Shown one piece after another: positions 31,654 to 64,000 of a stretch of 64,000 nucleotides of DNA (the first letter of the stretch is position 1; the number at the start of each line of letters is the position of its first letter). Both the position numbers and the translations under genes were made by a program. Below the pieces are notes generated by a model that saw only the letters and a list, made by a program, of their open reading frames with translations, was not told where the DNA came from and ran no database searches. The stretch is taken from the NCBI GenBank assembly GCA_031272775.1, contig JAISTB010000005.1:1-64000 (forward strand), written 5' to 3'. This DNA is from Fusobacteriaceae bacterium. GTDB taxonomy: Bacteria; Fusobacteriota; Fusobacteriia; Fusobacteriales; Fusobacteriaceae.

Positions 31654-32316
31654 ATGAAAGAAAATTTGACGGAACTTGTGGCAATTTTGGACAGAAGCGG
31701 CTCCATGCAGGGCCTGACGGCGGAAACCATCGCGGGCTACAACAAGTTTCTCGCGGAACAGAAAGAACTCCCCGGAGAGGCAAACCTGACGACGATCCTC
31801 TTTGACGACCGCTACGAGGTTCTTCACGAAGGCGTTCCTCTGCGGGAAATCCGCTTCATCACAGAAAGAGAATACTATACAAGGGGGTCGACCGCGCTCC
31901 TGGACGCGCTGGGCAAGACCATCAACGCCGTTGGGGCAAAATTGGCCCAGACGCAGGAAGAAGAGCGCCCGGGAAAGGTTTTGTTTCTCGTAATCACCGA
32001 CGGCTATGAAAACGCCAGCCGAGAGTTTACGGCGGAGCAGATCCGGCAGATGGTGGAACATCAGCGGGAAAAATACAAGTGGGAATTCCTATTTCTCGGC
32101 GCGAATATTGACGCCTTCGCGACGGCCTCTTCCATGGGGATCGCGCATGCCTACAACTATACGGCCGATAAAATACGGACCGGTATTATCTATAGCGCGC
32201 TGTCCTGCGCGACCAGGAGTTTTCGAAAATGTGCGAATCTCTATGAGGACGAGACCTTCGACGCATTGATGAAAGAGGCTTATGTGGGGCCGAAAGACAA
32301 GAAACAGAAGAAATAA
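31654..32316 (+). CDS. von Willebrand factor A (VWA) domain protein
   Basis: This 220-residue protein is a single VWA domain with a MIDAS motif D-R-S-G-S-M at residues 13-18, a conserved Thr region (YYTRGSTALLDAL) and VLFLVITDGYENAS. No signal peptide or membrane segment is seen, so it is cytosolic and likely binds a partner through Mg. GGGAGG precedes the ATG. It has no neighbouring AAA ATPase, the usual partner. It begins 75 bases after the type B promoter. Confidence 0.88.
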   Translation: MKENLTELVAILDRSGSMQGLTAETIAGYNKFLAEQKELPGEANLTTILFDDRYEVLHEGVPLREIRFITEREYYTRGSTALLDALGKTINAVGAKLAQTQEEERPGKVLFLVITDGYENASREFTAEQIRQMVEHQREKYKWEFLFLGANIDAFATASSMGIAHAYNYTADKIRTGIIYSALSCATRSFRKCANLYEDETFDALMKEAYVGPKDKKQKK

Positions 32317-32343
32317 AGGGGAAGGGGGCTGTAAAATACCTGA

Positions 32344-32372
32344 TTGACAAAAAACCAAGAATGTGGTAAAGT
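32344..32372 (+). promoter_or_regulatory. promoter of the AbrB-type antitoxin
   Basis: Perfect TTGACA, 17-base spacer and TAAAGT, about 38 bases before the antitoxin ATG. Confidence 0.75.
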
Positions 32373-32409
32373 AAAAATATCAAAATACCAAAATTTCAAG
32401 GAGCAGACA

Positions 32410-32757
32410 ATGACTACAGCCCAGACAACCCAACTGAATAAAACAATATCAATTTCTTCAAAAAACCAGATCACAATTCCCAGGCAAATCATGGAGTATT
32501 TAGGCTTTGAAAAAGAAGCTCGAATCAAGGTTGTTGGAAATTCTCTTTTGGTAACCCCGGTCAGAGAAGAGAGCAGCGAATTTTCCGAATATATTTTAGC
32601 GGATCTGATCAAAGAGGGATATTCCGGGGATGAATTACTTGAAGCCTTCAAAAATAGGCAAAGAGCGATAAAACCGGCGATTCAGGATATGATTGAACAA
32701 GTCTTGAAAGGAAAACTTTATACGCATGAAGAAGTGTTCGGAGTGAAGACGAAATGA
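32410..32757 (+). CDS. AbrB/SpoVT-type antitoxin
   Basis: This 115-residue protein has an N-terminal swapped-hairpin AbrB domain (ISISSKNQITIPRQIMEYLGF ... IKVVGNSLLV) and a helical C-terminus that would wrap a toxin. AAGGAG lies six bases before the ATG. It overlaps by ATGA a 40-codon toxin remnant, so the pair looks like a type II module whose toxin has been truncated, leaving an orphan antitoxin. Confidence 0.83.
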   Translation: MTTAQTTQLNKTISISSKNQITIPRQIMEYLGFEKEARIKVVGNSLLVTPVREESSEFSEYILADLIKEGYSGDELLEAFKNRQRAIKPAIQDMIEQVLKGKLYTHEEVFGVKTK

Positions 32758-32876
32758 CTTCACTCCTTTATTCGCCGGCAGCTGCGCGATATTTCAAAAA
32801 AATGAAAGACGCGCAGTTGAAGGCCAAATTCGAAAAAACAATACTCATGATTCAAGAGGATTATACTGTAACTTGA
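32754..32876 (+). pseudogene. truncated RelE/ParE-type toxin
   Basis: Starting at the ATG that overlaps the antitoxin stop, 40 codons read MTSLLYSPAAARYFKKMKDA and then KAKFEKTILMIQED before a stop. This is the N-terminal helical hairpin of RelE/ParE toxins; the catalytic strands are absent. I see no continuation in other frames downstream. Confidence 0.65.
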
Positions 32877-32911
32877 TGAGCCGGTATCAGACCCTACAAG
32901 AAAAAATAATT

Positions 32912-32939
32912 TTGTAAACCGCCTTTTGTATGATATCAT
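32912..32939 (+). promoter_or_regulatory. possible promoter of the MNT gene
   Basis: TTGTAA and an extended -10 TGA TATCAT are 16 bases apart, about 40 bases before the MNT start. Confidence 0.45.
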
Positions 32940-32980
32940 CAAGAAAACAACAAGATATGATAAAAGGTTTGGGGATCCGT

Positions 32981-33304
32981 ATGAACACGAAATTAGATGC
33001 AGATTTAAAAATTATCATAAATGAAATTCAGGCCATATTGCCTGGCGCGCGCATCATCTTGTTTGGCTCTTATGCGTCTGGCAGGGAAGGCCGGGACAGC
33101 GACTTGGATCTCTGCGTCGTTGCGGACCATTTTTCCGGTCGTAGGCTTGATATGATGCACGCGATTCGAAAAGCCGTCGCTGGAAAAATCAAATATTCCC
33201 TGGATATTCTTTTGTACCGAAACAGCGAATTTCAAGAATACGCAAAATCAAGGCCGCGACTTGAATATACAATTGCAAACGAGGGGGTAGTTGTGAATGC
33301 CTGA
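32981..33304 (+). CDS. MNT-type nucleotidyltransferase
   Basis: This 107-residue minimal nucleotidyltransferase carries GSYASGREGRDSDLDLCVV, the intact G-S-x(10)-D-x-D motif, plus a later LDILLY strand with the third Asp. The start at MNTKLDADL is chosen for alignment with the family; an ATG at 32948 is possible and no ribosome binding site clearly decides. The downstream HEPN partner is broken, so this is probably an orphan. Confidence 0.8.
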   Translation: MNTKLDADLKIIINEIQAILPGARIILFGSYASGREGRDSDLDLCVVADHFSGRRLDMMHAIRKAVAGKIKYSLDILLYRNSEFQEYAKSRPRLEYTIANEGVVVNA

Positions 33305-33435
33305 TCGAGAGCTTGTTTTGGCATGGTTGAACTGGTAGAAAGGGATATGAAAAATGCCTTGCAGCATGCAAAGGAGATATTGATGCTGTTATTCCAATAC
33401 TTCAAAATAAGGGCATCACGCTCGAAAGCTGATGA
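33297..33435 (+). pseudogene. decayed HEPN partner of the MNT gene
   Basis: An ATG overlapping the end of the MNT gene begins MPDRELVLAWLNW and then stops. The neighbouring frame continues with LVERDMKNALQHAKEIL, and the third frame ends with GDIDAVIPILQNKGITLES. The N-terminus matches HEPN proteins, so this looks like a gene broken by at least one frameshift. Confidence 0.55.
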
Positions 33436-33436
33436 A

Positions 33437-33465
33437 AAAATCTGCGCCGGATAGGCGCAGATTTT
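33437..33465 (+). terminator. hairpin AAAATCTGCGCC/GGCGCAGATTTT
   Basis: A 12-pair perfect stem with a five-base loop. Its core stem recurs at 47138-47166. It has flanking A and T runs, so it could terminate in either direction. Confidence 0.7.
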
Positions 33466-33532
33466 AACTTTAAAGACTGCTTCTCGTTACAATGCAAGCC
33501 AAACTTATACGGTTATTTTCAGCCCCCTCTCC

Positions 33533-33550
33533 GAAGGGGGCAGCGAAGCC
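33533..33550. repeat. intergenic inverted repeat CCCCCT/AGGGGG
   Basis: A short G/C hairpin lies in the gene-free stretch 33466-33944, followed by a GC-rich patch to 33572. The rest of this stretch holds promoter-like modules at 33585 and 33727 and a small hairpin near 33811-33824. Confidence 0.5.
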
Positions 33551-33584
33551 GCCGGGGGTTGCGCCGCCCTCCTCACAAAAAAAT

Positions 33585-33628
33585 GTCGCTTCCAAAGCGA
33601 CCATTTCCCAATCGAAATATGTTATGAT
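33585..33628 (+). promoter_or_regulatory. palindrome-bearing promoter, type B copy 2
   Basis: GTCGCTTCCAAAGCGAC is followed after exactly 21 bases by an extended -10 (TGT TATGAT). No gene lies between it and the type A module at 33727. Confidence 0.55.
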
Positions 33629-33726
33629 ATCACTATAGGCCCTGATCGCTATCCATCATAAATTATACGAAAATTGTATCAGCAGGAAAACGGGGTAAAA
33701 AATTCTCAAAAAAATATTTTTCAGAA

Positions 33727-33759
33727 AGACAAAATCTGTCGTTCCCTCTGTGCTATACT
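33727..33759 (+). promoter_or_regulatory. palindrome-bearing promoter, type A copy 1
   Basis: AGACAAAATCTGTCG, 12 bases, then TGC TATACT (extended -10), preceded by an A/T-rich run. It matches copies at 40364 and 41659 and probably drives the small protein gene at 33945. Confidence 0.7.
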
Positions 33760-33944
33760 ATTCCTGACAAGCAAGCGTGACGTAGTCAACGTTCAGATTC
33801 AACCATGGGTTGCGGGATCGTAAGATCCCCCAGCCCCCTTTACATCCATCATGGATCATGCGGAAATACTCTTGTGTCAAAGGCATCGGAATATATCTCA
33901 ATTGTCCGTGGTGGATTTTTTATGGTCCAAAAAGGAGGTAAAAC

Positions 33945-34190
33945 ATGCCTGTTCCCAAGTATGGGTATTCGGTAAAAAGCGATTGGGTGAGAAAAATCAT
34001 TTCTGTCGCGGTAAAGATGACGGATTTTCTCGGCGGGCGTCTCGATGTGTTTGCGGATGTGTCTGCGATTCCTCAGTCGATCAAGGTCAAGGGGGAGGAT
34101 TGGCCGCTTCAGAAGCGAAATTTCTACGGTCGCTCGACGGCGCCGGAAACCAATAGTTGCGTGATGTATGAGGCGTTTTACGGGAAATGA
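33945..34190 (+). CDS. small protein of unknown function
   Basis: This 81-residue frame has a very strong ribosome binding site (AAAAAGGAGGTAAAAC before the ATG) and lies 186 bases after the type A promoter. It has no signal peptide or membrane segment and contains Lys-Val-rich strands (KIISVAVKMTDFLGGRLDVF). I do not recognise it. The shared promoter suggests it belongs with the cassettes at 40516 and 41735. Confidence 0.55.
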   Translation: MPVPKYGYSVKSDWVRKIISVAVKMTDFLGGRLDVFADVSAIPQSIKVKGEDWPLQKRNFYGRSTAPETNSCVMYEAFYGK

Positions 34191-34595
34191 GGTTGTCGGA
34201 GCGCCCGGGGGCGGGGGACTGCGGGGGAGTCGGCCGGGAAATTGCGGAGTGGGCTGGAGGGCTGTTTGTGGCCTGTAGGTTTTTGCATATTTCCGATATG
34301 CGGGAAAAAGGCGGAATTTTGGGGGTAAATGAAAAGGGGGTTGTGGGTGGCGTGTGGTCTGCAATTGTGACAAGGGTAAAGATGAAGGGCGGAGTTTTGG
34401 GGGGTTGAGGGGGTGAAATTTATCAGGTATAATTGTGAGCTGTCACATAGATGAAAAGCCGGTAAATTAGCTCGCTGTGTAAATTTTCTATGTGCCAAAA
34501 TCATCAAAAAAGACACAAAAAATAATTTACTCTCCGAAATTGGCTTTTTTGTGGATTATCCATAAAAAAACCCGTAACTTGCGGGATTTAAGGCC
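34191..34595. other. gene-free stretch with G-rich plus strand
   Basis: From 34197 to about 34410 the plus strand is strongly G-rich with many runs of four to six G; frames there have no ribosome binding site and odd composition. From 34420 to 34595 it becomes AT-rich. I see no gene. Confidence 0.6.
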
Positions 34596-34624
34596 TTGAC
34601 AATCGGCGCCGAGTAGGCTATAAT
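34596..34624 (+). promoter_or_regulatory. perfect consensus promoter upstream of the GTPase operon
   Basis: TTGACA, 17-base spacer and TATAAT, an exact consensus. The next gene starts 368 bases downstream, so the transcript has a long leader or encodes a non-coding RNA. Confidence 0.8.
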
Positions 34625-34991
34625 AGAAGCAATTGAACGCACAATTATACCTGATAACTGACAGCCTTCACATTTCTGACAAAATGCCGATTTGACGCGC
34701 CCTTTTGACGAATAAAGCTCCAAATTTCGTATTGCACTGGCTGAATTACGCACACAATTGTAAAAAGTACAAAAATATAAATCCACCAACGTTTTACGGG
34801 AATACGACCCTCAAAATAGAGGCATTTGCCTTGATCGTGGTTGGCATGACCTACAAGATCTTTGCTGAAATTTGATCACGCCAGAGAACAGGATCCCAAG
34901 GCAGCATTTTCAAGAAGATTTACCGGTTTTTCGATACTGAGAGGCCTCCCAAACGAGAGCGGACATTACAAAAGATCAAAGCGAGGAGAAA
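34625..34991 (+). other. long leader or coding remnant before the Cys-rich gene
   Basis: No convincing gene is seen. Two short frames, around 34820-34876 (AFALIVVGMTYKIFAE) and 34912-34993 (YRFFDTERPPKRERTLQK), look like pieces of a degraded coding sequence, possibly a mobile-element protein; I cannot name it. Confidence 0.4.
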
Positions 34992-35219
34992 ATGACTAAG
35001 AAATGCAGGGATTGCCATCACTACAGCGGAATGAAATGTGATCTGGGGCGCACTCTACGCACCAGAAGCCCATCCTCAACATGCGCCTTTGCGGATCCCA
35101 CAAAAAAATGGTGCTGTAATTGCCGCTTTTACCAAAACGAAGTCTGTAACCTTCGCACGCCTCGCAGAACAAGCGTAACCTCTACTTGCCCGAATTTCAC
35201 GAAACATATCATGGTATGA
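34992..35219 (+). CDS. Cys-rich protein with duplicated zinc-ribbon-like motif
   Basis: This 75-residue protein is two copies of one motif, C-x2-C-x2-Y-x4-C-x-L-x4-R-T-x3-S-x-T-C-x2-F, each with four cysteines that could hold one zinc. GAGGAG lies five bases before the ATG. It sits 66 bases ahead of the first GTPase gene, in the same direction, and may be the first gene of that operon. Function unknown; RNA, DNA or protein binding is plausible for such ribbons. Confidence 0.7.
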   Translation: MTKKCRDCHHYSGMKCDLGRTLRTRSPSSTCAFADPTKKWCCNCRFYQNEVCNLRTPRRTSVTSTCPNFTKHIMV

Positions 35220-35285
35220 GGAAGACAAAGTAGCTCTGAAGTCCATTAGAGGAACAACTTTTATCATATAAAACAAGGAGGATTC

Positions 35286-36389
35286 ATGAAAGAGTATTCT
35301 GTAGAAGAAGTTCAGAAACGGATTAGCGAAATTCAACGGGAGAATAAAATTCCGGGTATTTTGATTTGTGGCCAGACTGGAGCCGGAAAATCTTCCGTAG
35401 TAAACTATATTTTCGATGAGTCTGTTTCAACAGCAGGTGTAGGAACCCCGTGTACCAAAGGTATCAAATTATATCAGAACAACACAGTAAACATCTATGA
35501 CAGCGAAGGCTATGAAATAGGGAGCGAAAAACAAGCACATTATGAAAAATTGATTTTCGATGATTTTTTACTTCAAAAAAAAGGATACACTGAAGATTCT
35601 ATAAACATCATCTGGTACACGATTTCTGCCGCTGGAAAGCGATTTACAGATCTTGATATAAGCTTAATTAAAAAAATCTCTCAAGAAGGATTTCCGATAT
35701 GCGTATTACTCGCCAAAATAGATGAATTGGATGACAAGAGTTTATTGGAACTTGAAAATGAATTAAAGAAAGCTTTGCCTGTTTTTCCTATTTTTAAAAC
35801 GAGTATCTTGGCAAAAAACGACGAAGCGGTGGCGAAATATTGTGACTGGGAAAAAATCATTACATGGACGTACGAAAAATTGCCCGAAAACCTGAAATTT
35901 AGATATGTATCCGCATTGCAAGAATGTCTTGAATTAAAACGAAATACAGCCGATAACTACATAAATCTGGCTTCTCTCGCTGCTGCGGGGATTGCAGCGT
36001 CGCCGATTCCATTCAGTGATGCGGCGCTTCTGGTTCCTCTCCAGACAGGATTACTCATGGAAATTTGCTCTTTGTATGGAATCAAAATCAGTAATTCAGG
36101 CATATTTTCCTTTGTTTTGGATATAGGAGTCAGCCAATTGGGAAAATCTATAGCGGGAAATCTTATTAAGCTTATCCCTGGCATAGGTACTGCAATCGGT
36201 ACAATGATCAATGTAACCGTCGCATCTACAATCACAAAGGCTGTCGGAACTGCACTTTCTGAGGCTATTTATATTCAGTGTAAAAAATCGACTGAAGGAA
36301 AAGCTCCTGTAATCGACATTGAAGCGATCATCTCTTCCGGTGAATTTATAAAAAAGGTCATAGAAATGTATAAATCTACAAAGGTATAG
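35286..36389 (+). CDS. P-loop GTPase with C-terminal DUF697-like membrane domain
   Basis: The 367-residue protein has an N-terminal GTPase domain with G1 GQTGAGKSS (residues 29-37), G3-like D-S-E-G and G4-like A-K-I-D. Its C-terminal half (about 220-345) is hydrophobic and Gly/Ala-rich (ASLAAAGIAASPIPFSDAAL, KLIPGIGTAIGTMI), matching the DUF697/YcjF-type domain. ACAAGGAGG precedes the ATG. Codon use is AT-rich compared with the housekeeping genes. It is the first of four related GTPases spaced 8-22 bases apart or with one gene between; membrane association is likely. Confidence 0.85.
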   Translation: MKEYSVEEVQKRISEIQRENKIPGILICGQTGAGKSSVVNYIFDESVSTAGVGTPCTKGIKLYQNNTVNIYDSEGYEIGSEKQAHYEKLIFDDFLLQKKGYTEDSINIIWYTISAAGKRFTDLDISLIKKISQEGFPICVLLAKIDELDDKSLLELENELKKALPVFPIFKTSILAKNDEAVAKYCDWEKIITWTYEKLPENLKFRYVSALQECLELKRNTADNYINLASLAAAGIAASPIPFSDAALLVPLQTGLLMEICSLYGIKISNSGIFSFVLDIGVSQLGKSIAGNLIKLIPGIGTAIGTMINVTVASTITKAVGTALSEAIYIQCKKSTEGKAPVIDIEAIISSGEFIKKVIEMYKSTKV

Positions 36390-36397
36390 GTGTTGTC

Positions 36398-37450
36398 GTG
36401 AACTGTGAAAACCATAACAACATTATGATTTTAGGACAGACCGGAACCGGAAAAAGTTCCTTGATTAACTATCTTGCTGGAAAAGAGGTAGTCAAAACGG
36501 GAATAGGGAGACCTGTGACACGTAAAGGTCAATGGGATAAAGTAGCCTTTGCCTCACCAAACAACCCGGAAAAAGAAATTACCATAATTGACAGTTGGGG
36601 CCTTGAAGCCAATAAAGCTGAAGAATGGAAAAAGGAAATATTGGGTAAACTCAGTGAATCTATCTCTTATGAAGAGATGATCCTTGGGACCATTTATTGC
36701 ATATCTTATTCGAATGCAAGAATACAGGAATTTGAACTGGATTTGATTAAAGTAATGCTGGATACCGGATACAAAATCATTATTGCTTTTACAAACTCAG
36801 ATGATAGCGCCTATCAAGAAAAGAAAATCAAATATAGAGAAATTTTTAACACTCATTTTTCAACCTATACCGGGCAATATTCTATGATCGACGTATGCGC
36901 CTTTTCAGTTCCAAAAATTGGTCAACCAAAACCGAAAGGAACTTTCGGCCGAGAAGAACTCCTTAATGTTTTGGAGTCAGATGCACGAAGCAATTTTATA
37001 AAAGTTTATAGATCACATCTAAATTCGTGGAAAGAAGAAAGCCAAAATACGTTGAAAATATGGTATACACAGAGTTTTAAAAAAGCCCATGAATTTGAGG
37101 GTCGATTTCATGATACAAATACTACGATCGCAAAAAAGATAAATGATGAGATCAACATAGCGTTCAAAAAAAGCTGTGATAAAATTTCTACCAAATTTGT
37201 TAATTATATGCGAGACGCCCAAGGCTATTACGACATGTTCTCAGGGACTTTTTCAAAGACCAAACTTACTGGATTACGGAAGTTCAAAGACGTTACGTTT
37301 TCAGCTACAATAGTGGGAGAACTATTTAACAAATATGTTGTCAAAGAAGATCTCAAAAAGGGATTGAAAGACGCCATCTGCAGAACTAAGAATGAGGCAA
37401 CAGAAAAAATTAACCTAAGTTACTCTGAGGCACTCAAAATAATTGCTTAA
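36398..37450 (+). CDS. P-loop GTPase with helical C-terminal domain
   Basis: The 350-residue protein has G1 GQTGTGKSS (13-21), G3-like D-S-W-G and a G4 position reading N-S-D-D rather than N-K-x-D, so guanine specificity may be altered. Residues from about 210 onward are helical and charged with no membrane segment. It starts eight bases after the DUF697 GTPase. It is a divergent paralogue of its neighbours and probably works with them; exact role unknown. Confidence 0.8.
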   Translation: MNCENHNNIMILGQTGTGKSSLINYLAGKEVVKTGIGRPVTRKGQWDKVAFASPNNPEKEITIIDSWGLEANKAEEWKKEILGKLSESISYEEMILGTIYCISYSNARIQEFELDLIKVMLDTGYKIIIAFTNSDDSAYQEKKIKYREIFNTHFSTYTGQYSMIDVCAFSVPKIGQPKPKGTFGREELLNVLESDARSNFIKVYRSHLNSWKEESQNTLKIWYTQSFKKAHEFEGRFHDTNTTIAKKINDEINIAFKKSCDKISTKFVNYMRDAQGYYDMFSGTFSKTKLTGLRKFKDVTFSATIVGELFNKYVVKEDLKKGLKDAICRTKNEATEKINLSYSEALKIIA

Positions 37451-37463
37451 AAAGGTGATTTTC

Positions 37464-38261
37464 ATGACGCAGACGCAAAATCTCTTATTTTTGAATAATA
37501 TAAGCGATGAAACAAAAATAAACATTTTTCTATGTGGACAGACAGGGGCGGGTAAATCTTCTATTGTGAATTATATCTTGAAGGAGAATCTCGCGAAAAA
37601 CAGCGATACCAACGTTACAACAAAAGGGATAAAATCCTATCATAAAGGCGACCTGGGAGAATTGTGGGATAGCGACGGGTATGAAATCAATAATCAGGAG
37701 CACTATAAAAGCCTTCTGCATGATTACTTTAAGTTGAGAACACAAAACAACTATGATGAAGTTCTATTGACATGGTTCGTGGTAAACGGAGCCACAAAAC
37801 GCTTTACTTCTTACGATCAACAATTGGTAGAACTTATTTCCAAAAAGGCAGGCCACATTGCGATAGTAGTAAACAAGATCGATGAACTGAGTAGTAGCCA
37901 GTTAAGTCAATTTAAAGATTCCATAAAAAAGCAAAATCCAGAAGGAAATATTTTTCTTGTCAGCACAAAAGCCGTTGAAAACTCAGAACTCATAACATTT
38001 TGCGAATGGGATGCTTTGTTCGATTGGACTTACAAAATTGGAAATTCAGGTAATACTGTAATTCGCTTACTGCAACAGCGAGCGGAAAGCGGAGATACGG
38101 AAGCTCAAAAGGAATTAAGTATTCTGTTTGAAAGCAAAAATGCGTTCCTGCTGGCAATCAAGTACATAAAATTAGCGGCAAATGCCGGCGATAAAGCAGC
38201 ATGGGTGAAAATGAAGGAACTGGCAATCAAACATGCAATTTCAAATCAAACCAAAAGCTGA
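37464..38261 (+). CDS. P-loop GTPase with Sel1-like C-terminal repeats
   Basis: The 265-residue protein has G1 GQTGAGKSS (25-33), G3 D-S-D-G and G4 N-K-I-D, all intact. It is clearly paralogous to the first GTPase: both share VNYI, TKGIK, D-S-x-G-Y-E-I and a K-R-F-T segment. The last 55 residues (LLQQRAESGDTEAQKELS, AIKYIKLAANAGDKAAW) form Sel1/TPR-like repeats, a protein-binding add-on. I start at the ATG after AAAGGTGAT; an in-frame TTG seven codons earlier overlaps the previous gene. Confidence 0.82.
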   Translation: MTQTQNLLFLNNISDETKINIFLCGQTGAGKSSIVNYILKENLAKNSDTNVTTKGIKSYHKGDLGELWDSDGYEINNQEHYKSLLHDYFKLRTQNNYDEVLLTWFVVNGATKRFTSYDQQLVELISKKAGHIAIVVNKIDELSSSQLSQFKDSIKKQNPEGNIFLVSTKAVENSELITFCEWDALFDWTYKIGNSGNTVIRLLQQRAESGDTEAQKELSILFESKNAFLLAIKYIKLAANAGDKAAWVKMKELAIKHAISNQTKS

Positions 38262-38275
38262 TAAAGGAGGAACAA

Positions 38276-38941
38276 ATGGGGAGCTATCGATTTGATCATG
38301 ATCTTGAATTTTTCAGAACATGTTCGCATGAAGAACTTGAAGAGCTGGAAACCATTCTGATCTGGGGGACGAAGAAGAATAAAGATCAGAACAAGCGGAA
38401 TATTTCAGAGCAAATTACACGCGAACCTTTGTGGAAGGAATTCCATGAAACGGACAGAACGAAATATTGGTCATTGCTGGCAAGAGAATTACAGGAATAT
38501 GGGGGCAATACAATTATCAACACAGGCAGAGGTGGCGGCGTATACTATAGAGAAATTCTGGAAGATGTAATGAAAAAAGTAAAAACACCTTTTGACGGGT
38601 CACTTAGCACCTCTGTTAATGAACAGAATTTGTTATCCAAGGTCTTTGCAGATTCTATGTGTAATTTTTCCAAAGAACAACAAGAACGAATCATTAGAGA
38701 GTTGGATAAAAATGGCTTTCCATCAAATCTGGCTGAAATAGGAACTGGGATAGTAGAAATGCTAAAATTGGGAGGCATGGGAACAGTGATCAGTTACTTT
38801 ACGGGACCTATTGGATGGTTATATGCGGGGGAGTGGATAATATTTGGACCCGCATACCGGATAACTAAACCTGCCGTGATTCGAGTCAGTATATTGAGAA
38901 TAATCAAAAGCGCTGAACTGAACAATGAAGCAAATTGCTAA
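38276..38941 (+). CDS. YaaW/UPF0174 (DUF3944) family protein
   Basis: This 221-residue protein matches the YaaW family in its core: YWSLLARELQEYGGNTIINT, GRGGGVYYREILEDVMKKVK and NEQNLLSKVFADSM. The C-terminal part has a hydrophobic Gly-rich segment (GGMGTVISYFTGPIGWLYAG) that may insert in or lie on the membrane. AAAGGAGG precedes the ATG. YaaW has no established biochemical function, and here it is embedded among four GTPases, which suggests it is their substrate, effector or scaffold. Confidence 0.82.
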   Translation: MGSYRFDHDLEFFRTCSHEELEELETILIWGTKKNKDQNKRNISEQITREPLWKEFHETDRTKYWSLLARELQEYGGNTIINTGRGGGVYYREILEDVMKKVKTPFDGSLSTSVNEQNLLSKVFADSMCNFSKEQQERIIRELDKNGFPSNLAEIGTGIVEMLKLGGMGTVISYFTGPIGWLYAGEWIIFGPAYRITKPAVIRVSILRIIKSAELNNEANC

Positions 38942-38963
38942 AAAATTATTATAGGTGGTACCC

Positions 38964-40316
38964 ATGCGTGAATTCATAGCCAAATTGAATTTAAAAACTA
39001 TCTTGCAAATATTGATTCTTCCAGCTATTTCTTATGTCCTGCATATAGCCTATCGCAAAAACAAGTTTATCAGAACACGATTGAGAGGATTGGGATCTTG
39101 GATCGGAAAATTGCTTGACATAATCTTAGACCGCCCTCCTAAACCGAAACCCGAATCTATAAACGAGACGCCATCCATTCAAGACAATGGCAAAAATATC
39201 GAAACCAAATGCCCTGAATTTACCGAGCAATACCAAGCGCAGAGGCAAAAACTGAAATCTCCGACCATTTTCGTTTGTGGCTATAGCCGCAGCGGGAAGA
39301 AATCTCTCATAGATGCCGTTTTCTCCAGAGTCGTTCAAGCCGAAGTAGACGATGCAGACAGCGAACTGACGCAGGACTATGTTGGATATCTGAAAAATGA
39401 TCTCGTCATTTGGAAATCTCAAAATTGGAAACCAGAGCGCACAGATGACGCGTTCGAAGCGCGGATAAAAGACTTTTTCCAAGAAAAGCGGACAGATGAA
39501 GGGTCTTTGATCTGGTTTACTATCCCAAGTGATGCTGACAGTTTGAAATACGAAAAGACCTTTCTGAAGAACATTTTCAATCCGGCAAAAGACATCGTAG
39601 TTATTACAAAATGTGATCTTAAAGATAAGAAAAAAGCGATAAAAATATTACGAAAAGAAATCATGACTTGTAACGTTCCCAAAGATCGGATTATTGAGAC
39701 CAATGAACAACCCGAAGGTTATGATAAGCTTGCATCACTTACTCTCGCATCTCTTGCTGAACCCTATAAAGATGTCTTTGCAGACGAACAGACAAGACGA
39801 ACTGTCAAAATTGAAATGATCAAAAGCAAACGAAAAGCGGTGGATGCAGATGCAATAATTAAAAATGCCATAGATAGCGCTTCCGCCAATATAAAAAGTT
39901 CAATTTCTATTTCAAACATCAACAACTTTTTCCCGATACAGTTCGGCATGATCGGCAAGCTGGCAGCATTGTTTGGTTTGGATGATGAAATGCAGAGAAG
40001 AGTGAAATCTCGAATCTTGCCTGACATCTCCAGGGTAGACTCTCTTTTGCACGATTTGATTCCGAAATATGAAGGAAAGGTCAATGCCAAAACGGCTAAG
40101 CAATTGACAAAAGCGATCGGCCTGTACGCTAAAGAGAGCTTTCAGGCGGCAGTCATTGGGAAAATTGAAGGAAAAACAGATAAAGAAATCATAGAATTTG
40201 ACAAAGCTCTTTTTAAAAAATGTTACACGAAAGCTCAACAAGGGCTGTTGGACAAGCTCAAAGCACATGTATGGAAGCGAAGAGCATCCACAGAGAAAAG
40301 TTCTGCTTCTAAATGA
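38964..40316 (+). CDS. membrane-anchored degenerate GTPase
   Basis: The 450-residue protein begins with one hydrophobic segment (ILQILILPAISYVLHIAY, about 16-33), then a linker and a GTPase-like domain. Its P-loop reads GYSRSGKKS, with Lys in place of the Mg-binding Ser/Thr, and G4 is T-K-C-D; no clear G3 is seen. The long helical C-terminus (about 270-450) has no match I recognise. It follows YaaW by 22 bases with AGGTGG before the ATG. A catalytically weak, membrane-tethered member of the GTPase set is the best reading. Confidence 0.75.
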   Translation: MREFIAKLNLKTILQILILPAISYVLHIAYRKNKFIRTRLRGLGSWIGKLLDIILDRPPKPKPESINETPSIQDNGKNIETKCPEFTEQYQAQRQKLKSPTIFVCGYSRSGKKSLIDAVFSRVVQAEVDDADSELTQDYVGYLKNDLVIWKSQNWKPERTDDAFEARIKDFFQEKRTDEGSLIWFTIPSDADSLKYEKTFLKNIFNPAKDIVVITKCDLKDKKKAIKILRKEIMTCNVPKDRIIETNEQPEGYDKLASLTLASLAEPYKDVFADEQTRRTVKIEMIKSKRKAVDADAIIKNAIDSASANIKSSISISNINNFFPIQFGMIGKLAALFGLDDEMQRRVKSRILPDISRVDSLLHDLIPKYEGKVNAKTAKQLTKAIGLYAKESFQAAVIGKIEGKTDKEIIEFDKALFKKCYTKAQQGLLDKLKAHVWKRRASTEKSSASK

Positions 40317-62080: not shown

Positions 62081-62109
62081 TTGACCTTTTCGGAAAAATG
62101 ATGTATCAT
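62081..62109 (+). promoter_or_regulatory. promoter of the DinG-like helicase gene
   Basis: TTGACC, 17-base spacer and TATCAT, about 80 bases before the ATG and divergent from the smc promoter. Confidence 0.7.
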
Positions 62110-62187: not shown

Positions 62188-64000
62188 ATGAAAGCTGAAG
62201 AAAGAATTCACCCCGAAGCCTGTGAATTGATGAAAAACGCCATAGCCGAAGCGGGCGGCAACGAAGTGTTCTTCCGCGGGATCCCCGACGACCGGGGGAT
62301 CGTCATGAAGGCCCAGGTGCTCGCCCGGGGCAATCGGGGATCCGTCCCCGCCATTTTGAAGATCATGCGGAAGGGCGAGGTCATCCTCCACAACCATCCC
62401 TCGGGTTATCTCTACCCTTCGGACGCCGATACGGAAATCGCCTCGGTCTACGCCAACGCCATGGCCGGCGCCGCCTATATCATCAATAACGACGTCACGG
62501 AGCTCTATGTGATCACGGAACTTCTGACCGACAAGAATGTCCCCATCGATATCGGACATTTTTTTGCGGAAGACGGGATTCTCCTCAGGACCTTCCCCGA
62601 TTTTGAATACCGCAAAGAGCAGCTGGAAATGGCGCTTCACATCGAAGAGGGGCTGAACAGTGAGACGAAAATTATCGTCGAGGCGGGGACCGGCACCGGA
62701 AAGACCCTCGCTTATCTGATCCCGGTCATCAAATGGGCCAAGCTCAACAAAAAACGGGCCGTCATCAGCACGAACACCATCAATCTCCAGGAACAGCTCC
62801 TCAACAAGGACATTCCGATCGTCAAGAAGATCATCGGGGAGGACTTCAAATACCTCCTCGTCAAGGGCCGGGGCAATTATCTCTGCAACCGGAAATACAG
62901 CAAGGCCGCCGTGGGGGAAAATATAGACGTCTCCGATTTCAGCCACGAGCAGAGCGTCCAGATCAAAGAGATCCTCAAATGGGGCGCTTCGACCCTGACC
63001 GGAGACCGTTCGGAGCTGGCCTTTGAGGTGGACGGGACGATCTGGGAGCATTTTTCCAGTGAAACCGACGTCTGCGCCGGGAACAAATGCCGCTTCCGGG
63101 ATGAATGTTTCTTTATGCGCTCGCGGAATGAAAAGCGGCAGGCCGACATTCTGATCACGAACCACCACATGTTTTTTTCCGATCTGGCGATCCGCAAGGA
63201 AACAGGCTTTCAGACGGATTTCGCGATCATTCCCGACTACGGGCTGGCGGTCTTTGACGAGGCCCACAACGTCGAAAAGGTAGCCCGGGATTATTTTTCC
63301 CTGGAAATTTCCAAATACGGCTTTACCAAAGTCATGAACTATATTTACGCCTTCGAGGGCAAGCGGAAAAAGCAGGGCATGCTGGAAAATCTCTATCACT
63401 ATCTGCGTACCTCGGCAACTGAAGATAAGGACGAGCTGCTCAAAGACCTCGACGACGTCAGGAAGGCCCACAGGACGCTTCTTACCGCCGGAAGGGAGTA
63501 TTTCAACTACATCATCGACAGCTTCTCCAAGGGTCAGGAAGGGACCTTCACGTTCCGGATCAAAAAAGAAGAGATCGGCATGAACCGTTTTCTCGAGCGG
63601 ATGGCCTTTTACCGAGAGGAATTTTCCAAAGAATATCTCGCCTACAGCAAAAAAGTCATGCGCCTCGTGACGCCCCTGGAGGACGATCCCGATCCCGAGG
63701 GGACGGTTTTGGACTTTGTCAAGTACCTGAAACGGCTCGACGCCTTTTTCAATACGCTCAAATTCGTCAACGCCTTCGAGGACGAAAACTATATCTACTG
63801 GATTGAGGTCAACAGCAAGAAAAGCAACGCGAAGCTTTTGGCCACGCCGCTCAAAATCGACCAGGAACTCAAACAGCACCTGTATCTCCATCTGCGGCAG
63901 ATTATCTTTACGTCTGCGACCATCGCCATCGGCAGGAGCTTCGCCTATTTCAAGGGCTCTCTGGGCCTAAGCGATGAGCAGACCATCGACAAGGCCATCG
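62188..64000 (+). CDS. JAMM/RadC-like domain fused to DinG/XPD-type helicase, partial
   Basis: 604 codons are present and the gene runs off the right edge. Residues 1-120 carry H68-x-H70-x7-S78-x2-D81 in VILHNHPSGYLYPSDAD, the JAMM metalloprotease/RadC signature, with candidate Glu26. The helicase begins with Walker A EAGTGTGKT (165-173), VISTNTINLQEQLL, an iron-sulfur Cys set (LCNRKY and DVCAGNKCRFRDECFF), ITNHHMFFSD and a DEAH box (VFDEAHNVEK). DinG-family helicases are 5'-3' and resolve R-loops and damaged forks. No strong ribosome binding site is seen; an AAAGGACCGG is the best candidate. Confidence 0.9.
   Translation, partial: MKAEERIHPEACELMKNAIAEAGGNEVFFRGIPDDRGIVMKAQVLARGNRGSVPAILKIMRKGEVILHNHPSGYLYPSDADTEIASVYANAMAGAAYIINNDVTELYVITELLTDKNVPIDIGHFFAEDGILLRTFPDFEYRKEQLEMALHIEEGLNSETKIIVEAGTGTGKTLAYLIPVIKWAKLNKKRAVISTNTINLQEQLLNKDIPIVKKIIGEDFKYLLVKGRGNYLCNRKYSKAAVGENIDVSDFSHEQSVQIKEILKWGASTLTGDRSELAFEVDGTIWEHFSSETDVCAGNKCRFRDECFFMRSRNEKRQADILITNHHMFFSDLAIRKETGFQTDFAIIPDYGLAVFDEAHNVEKVARDYFSLEISKYGFTKVMNYIYAFEGKRKKQGMLENLYHYLRTSATEDKDELLKDLDDVRKAHRTLLTAGREYFNYIIDSFSKGQEGTFTFRIKKEEIGMNRFLERMAFYREEFSKEYLAYSKKVMRLVTPLEDDPDPEGTVLDFVKYLKRLDAFFNTLKFVNAFEDENYIYWIEVNSKKSNAKLLATPLKIDQELKQHLYLHLRQIIFTSATIAIGRSFAYFKGSLGLSDEQTIDKAI

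Follow-up and report, generated by a model that had tools for sequence, protein, structure and literature searches.

The last gene in the window, the whole 64,000-nucleotide stretch of contig JAISTB010000005.1 from a Fusobacteriaceae bacterium, joins a JAMM domain to a DinG-type helicase, and this raises the question of what a metal-hydrolase fold contributes at the front of such a helicase. The reading frame of this gene (JAMM-DinG) starts with ATG at 62188 on the forward strand and stays open to the window end at 64000. The fusion reported in a preliminary description is confirmed, with the minor correction that the window edge cuts the gene; on the parent contig the frame ends at 64650, 650 bases beyond the edge, with a product of 820 amino acids. 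The protein is very probably the Fusobacteriaceae ortholog of RadC-like DinG, combining an XPD-family Fe-S helicase with a catalytically intact JAMM metal-hydrolase domain in cis. Its features are as follows.

62081..62109, + strand: sigma-70-like promoter match TTGACC-17-TATCAT upstream of the JAMM-DinG gene (consensus match only)
62188..64000, on to contig position 64650, + strand: JAMM-DinG gene, 820 aa (ORF, full translation, genome search)
62188..62523, + strand: N-terminal RadC-clade JAMM domain, residues 1-112 (PF04002 24.9 bits, AlphaFold2, Foldseek)
62263..62265, + strand: E26, the JAMM glutamate (E in 161/169 distinct domains)
62389..62430, + strand: metal-site motif H68-x-H70-P-x6-S78-x2-D81 (53/58 domain-bearing Fusobacteriota rows)
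62524..62592, + strand: linker from JAMM domain to helicase, residues 113-135 (alignment, full-length model)
62683..62706, + strand: Walker A EAGTGTGK, helicase motif I (translation, alignment)
62884..63108, + strand: Fe-S cysteines C233, C296, C301 and C307 (at least 95% conserved, 68 aligned rows)
63256..63267, + strand: DEAH box, residues 357-360 (translation, alignment; at least 95% conserved in relatives)

Gene architecture and family assignment

The JAMM motif is complete, as first described, with H68-N-H70-P-S-G-x4-S78-x2-D81 matching exactly and E26 completing the set of five JAMM residues. Walker A (EAGTGTGKT, residues 165-173) lies 84 residues past D81, in agreement with the earlier estimate of about 85, and the XPD-type helicase with Fe-S cysteines proved real, its four cysteines and DEAH box being highly conserved in relatives. 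Against the PF04002 (RadC) model, the 604-aa piece scored 20.6 bits, under the 22.1 cut-off, and the JAMM domain alone scored 24.9 bits, over it; all 58 related domains scanned match the same model (58/58, E <= 0.01). AlphaFold2 modelled the N-terminal domain with a pLDDT of 91 and the full-length protein with a pLDDT of 91 and a pTM of 0.87. RadC 2qlc was the top PDB match of the N-terminal model in Foldseek, followed by CSN5, Rpn11 and BRCC36, and was also retrieved by a profile search (E 5.9e-9). A chance motif is ruled out by the 58 RadC-matching homologous domains, the RadC fold, and the presence of homologues, mostly over the whole length, in 94 of the 100 closest genomes. Pfam gave no helix-hairpin-helix (HhH) match in the JAMM-DinG protein.

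The family models that best fit the helicase part are YoaA and DinG. In E. coli, the DinG paralog YoaA acts together with HolC. It is the best NCBIfam model for the helicase part (604-aa window piece), at 316 bits, far under its 680-bit cut-off. HolC was found in 0 of 100 related genomes, with E. coli and Caulobacter controls positive, and a HolC-partnered YoaA is ruled out on this ground. Among solved structures, E. coli DinG (6fwr) is the closest to the helicase part both by sequence (E 4e-98) and by fold. A DnaQ-type exonuclease gave no Pfam match in the window protein up to E 1.

Sigma-70-like promoter matches number two in the region against 0.7 expected. Base composition varies strongly within the genus: dinG GC3 is 0.73 in the window member, 0.69 in G001 and 0.24 in G002, the AT-rich state being that of most other relatives sampled. 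Within the window, GC content drops to 0.41 in the block 32001-40000, against about 0.51-0.55 across most of its length.

Distribution of the fusion and conservation of its metal site

The domain order, suspected at the outset to be lineage-wide, is near-universal in Fusobacteriaceae and extends to several phyla. The fusion was found in Fusobacteriota, Spirochaetota (Treponema and others), Desulfobacterota/Desulfuromonadales (including Geobacter), Gemmatimonadota, KSB1 and others, with further named loci in Dadabacteria, Planctomycetota, Sumerlaeota and Halanaerobiales. A draw of 118 genomes from the phylum to which a Geoalkalibacter belongs gave the full-length fused protein in no more than 12, and many of the remaining ones carry an unfused DinG. 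A 99% branch separates the JAMM domains of the fusions from 23 free RadC rows, which is consistent with one fusion origin, in a tree of few columns with a mainly Bacteroidota RadC sample and with one broken copy (L051) left out.

RadC-family matches occur in 97 of 100 relatives, mostly as free RadC at E < 1e-35, and the fusion as a substitute for missing RadC is ruled out, since ordinary RadC coexists with it in nearly all relatives. In the window's own genome, the contig that holds the window (contig 5) also encodes a free RadC, at 118996-119349. Genus g12 (L056, L057) has an ordinary radC some 2-3 kb upstream of JAMM-dinG, with both genes on one strand.

Taking all loci together, the five metal-site residues (E, H, H, S, D) are kept in 161 of 169 distinct domains, contrary to the possibility, raised in the preliminary description, that the His/Asp residues might not be conserved in homologues. 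The site is intact in 53/58 domain-bearing rows of Fusobacteriales and in 49/49 domain-bearing spirochaete genomes read; both sets were collected with whole-protein queries that did not demand the motif and are therefore free of motif bias. For loci L072-L130 the conservation is in part a product of the search, since they were found by a pattern scan (HNHPSGxLxP and GNE[VI]FF) that itself contained HNHPSG and so favoured intact sites. Of the two roles suggested in the preliminary description, hydrolysis of peptide or isopeptide bonds and DNA binding by the RadC fold, a purely passive form of the second does not account for such strict retention of E, HxH, S and D. Most likely, the JAMM domain works as an active metal hydrolase alongside the helicase.

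Decay and loss of the JAMM domain

The eight exceptions comprise one domain cut by a contig end (L126) and seven decayed domains from three lineages, namely genus g9 (Fusobacteriaceae), a g17 subgroup, and one genome of the Desulfobacterota draw (L233). All seven decayed copies (L035, L036, L037, L045, L046, L070 and L233) carry Arg or Lys in place of H68. Beyond these, the helicase occurs without the JAMM domain in g6 and g19/g22/g23/g25 of Fusobacteriales and in the Treponema-like rows L196-L200. The Fusobacteriales locus reads dinG-pgpH-ybeY, and the JAMM domain was lost from that same locus: the gene stands directly before pgpH in g6, g9, g17 and g19, like intact genes, while in g22, g23 and g25 the stretch examined contains no pgpH. 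An assembly fault as the source of the domain loss is ruled out for g6, in which two single-contig genomes hold the JAMM-less gene in the dinG-pgpH context. Two copies, L045 (G074) and L051 (G058), have a disrupted JAMM-DinG frame, through assembly error or as a pseudogene.

Mapped onto the helicase tree by a quick method, the three states (intact, decayed, absent) require at least 10 changes; for the intact state, 7 changes are forced by starred branches. The decayed g9 and the deleted g6 are sister groups with 100% support, which suggests that the metal site may have decayed prior to domain loss. Loss of the metal ligands in seven copies, together with loss of the whole domain in several lineages, indicates that the activity is dispensable. 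These patterns make the JAMM domain an optional module that is strongly selected for wherever it is present.

The same lineages bear on a rather doubtful alternative, in which the JAMM domain is mainly a structural or binding module whose metal site serves folding rather than catalysis. Genus g9 and the g17 subgroup keep the domain despite having lost E, H and H, with S78 and D81 mostly kept, as a structural role would allow; however, strict retention of the five residues nearly everywhere else runs against it, and the g9/g6 clade shows site loss beside whole-domain loss, as expected if catalysis mattered.

Neighbouring genes at 57 loci from many phyla include none that is common across phyla; recurring neighbours were confined to single phyla (Gemmatimonadota, Spirochaetota), which rules out a conserved operon partner.

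Candidate activities and comparison with known systems

As an active hydrolase joined to a helicase, the protein would serve genome maintenance, translocating on single-stranded DNA as DinG does, while the JAMM domain, with one zinc, would hydrolyse something that the motor presents; here we infer zinc binding, catalysis and coupling to unwinding alike. The N-terminal nuclease of ExoDinG/EndoDinG suggests, by analogy, nucleic acid as a tentative first guess for the substrate; a protein roadblock or crosslink is an unlikely second guess, and the remaining probability falls to a non-hydrolytic role.

The JAMM domain could thus be a nuclease that degrades the helicase-unwound strand, a possible reading in which it acts like the N-terminal domains of ExoDinG/EndoDinG, and it does occupy the position of nuclease domains in other DinG proteins. 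The proposal that the RadC clade is a nuclease, based on its fusions to HhH and DinG/RAD3 helicases, is credited in a 2017 paper to earlier work of its authors (PMC5512222) and is repeated in a paper of 2012 (PMC3482391); however, no demonstrated nuclease activity for any RadC was found in the literature, the DALI comparison in section 3.8 of a 2025 review gave no nuclease similarity (PMC11981726), and the best Foldseek matches obtained here include RadC and JAMM peptidases. The latter matches speak for a metallopeptidase that clears proteins, or proteins crosslinked through isopeptide bonds or to DNA, from the DNA ahead of the helicase, which we regard as unlikely. The closest solved folds after RadC are the JAMM peptidases CSN5, Rpn11 and BRCC36, archaeal JAMM1 and Rpn11 are among the DALI relatives given in the same section of the review (PMC11981726), and E, HxH, S and D are the residues of a JAMM peptidase site. 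However, RadC-clade domains reportedly have no groove for a ubiquitin tail (PMC5512222, PMC3482391), and the 57 loci hold no cross-phylum neighbour that could be a ubiquitin-like partner. A search for E2 gave 0 matches in 41 relatives, and 0 in the control genomes as well. Overall, the RadC-clade literature and the domain position favour a nuclease, the literature doing so over a ubiquitin-type peptidase, and the structural neighbours favour a peptidase. A more specific proposal, which we consider quite improbable, is that an active JAMM protease clears the path of the XPD-type helicase of protein roadblocks or DNA-protein crosslinks and was repeatedly lost where such damage is otherwise handled; if true, the protein would be a bacterial one-chain counterpart of the pairing of a JAMM enzyme with a FANCJ/XPD-like helicase. 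Should the domain prove to be a nuclease or a crosslink protease, the RadC clade, over whose function there is still dispute, would gain its first activity.

The fusion architecture is already published, and the window protein is a known type rather than a discovery. The RadC-DinG/RAD3-like helicase fusion is credited in PMC5512222 to its authors' earlier work, and section 3.8 of PMC11981726 defines a "RadC-like DinG" subgroup exemplified by Desulfuromonas soudanensis, models its zinc site, gives JAMM proteases as structural relatives and notes that HolC is absent from the genomes concerned. The preliminary description had allowed that such fusions might already be well described; this holds for their description in both papers but not for laboratory work, as the same section of the review states that no research has been done on the subgroup, and our literature search found no biochemical test of any fusion member. 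The analysis adds new detail, namely the phylum range of the fusion, the site conservation counts, and the decayed and deleted lineages, the last being absent from the account of RadC-like DinG in that section (PMC11981726). Most useful among these additions is the natural series of intact sites, decayed sites and deleted domains, which in Fusobacteriales lies for the most part at a single syntenic locus and provides ready comparisons for the JAMM contribution to a DinG helicase in a family that is widespread and, by the reviewers' account in that section, unstudied (PMC11981726).

Collectively, the window protein shows the features of RadC-like DinG: an N-terminal RadC-clade JAMM domain with E, H, H and D, the MD1/MD2 motor with Walker A, DEAH and the four-Cys (CCCC) Fe-S motif, and HolC absence. 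It differs in coming from Fusobacteriaceae, with no structural difference among the features tested. Compared with YoaA, it adds the JAMM domain, and HolC is absent in 100 of 100 relatives. Like ExoDinG/EndoDinG, it places a catalytic-type domain in front of the DinG motor, but this domain is a JAMM rather than an exonuclease or endonuclease. With standalone RadC (PF04002) it shares the JAMM clade and the motif HNHPSG..PS..D, whereas it is fused to a helicase, shows no N-terminal HhH part and lies across the 99% branch from free RadC.
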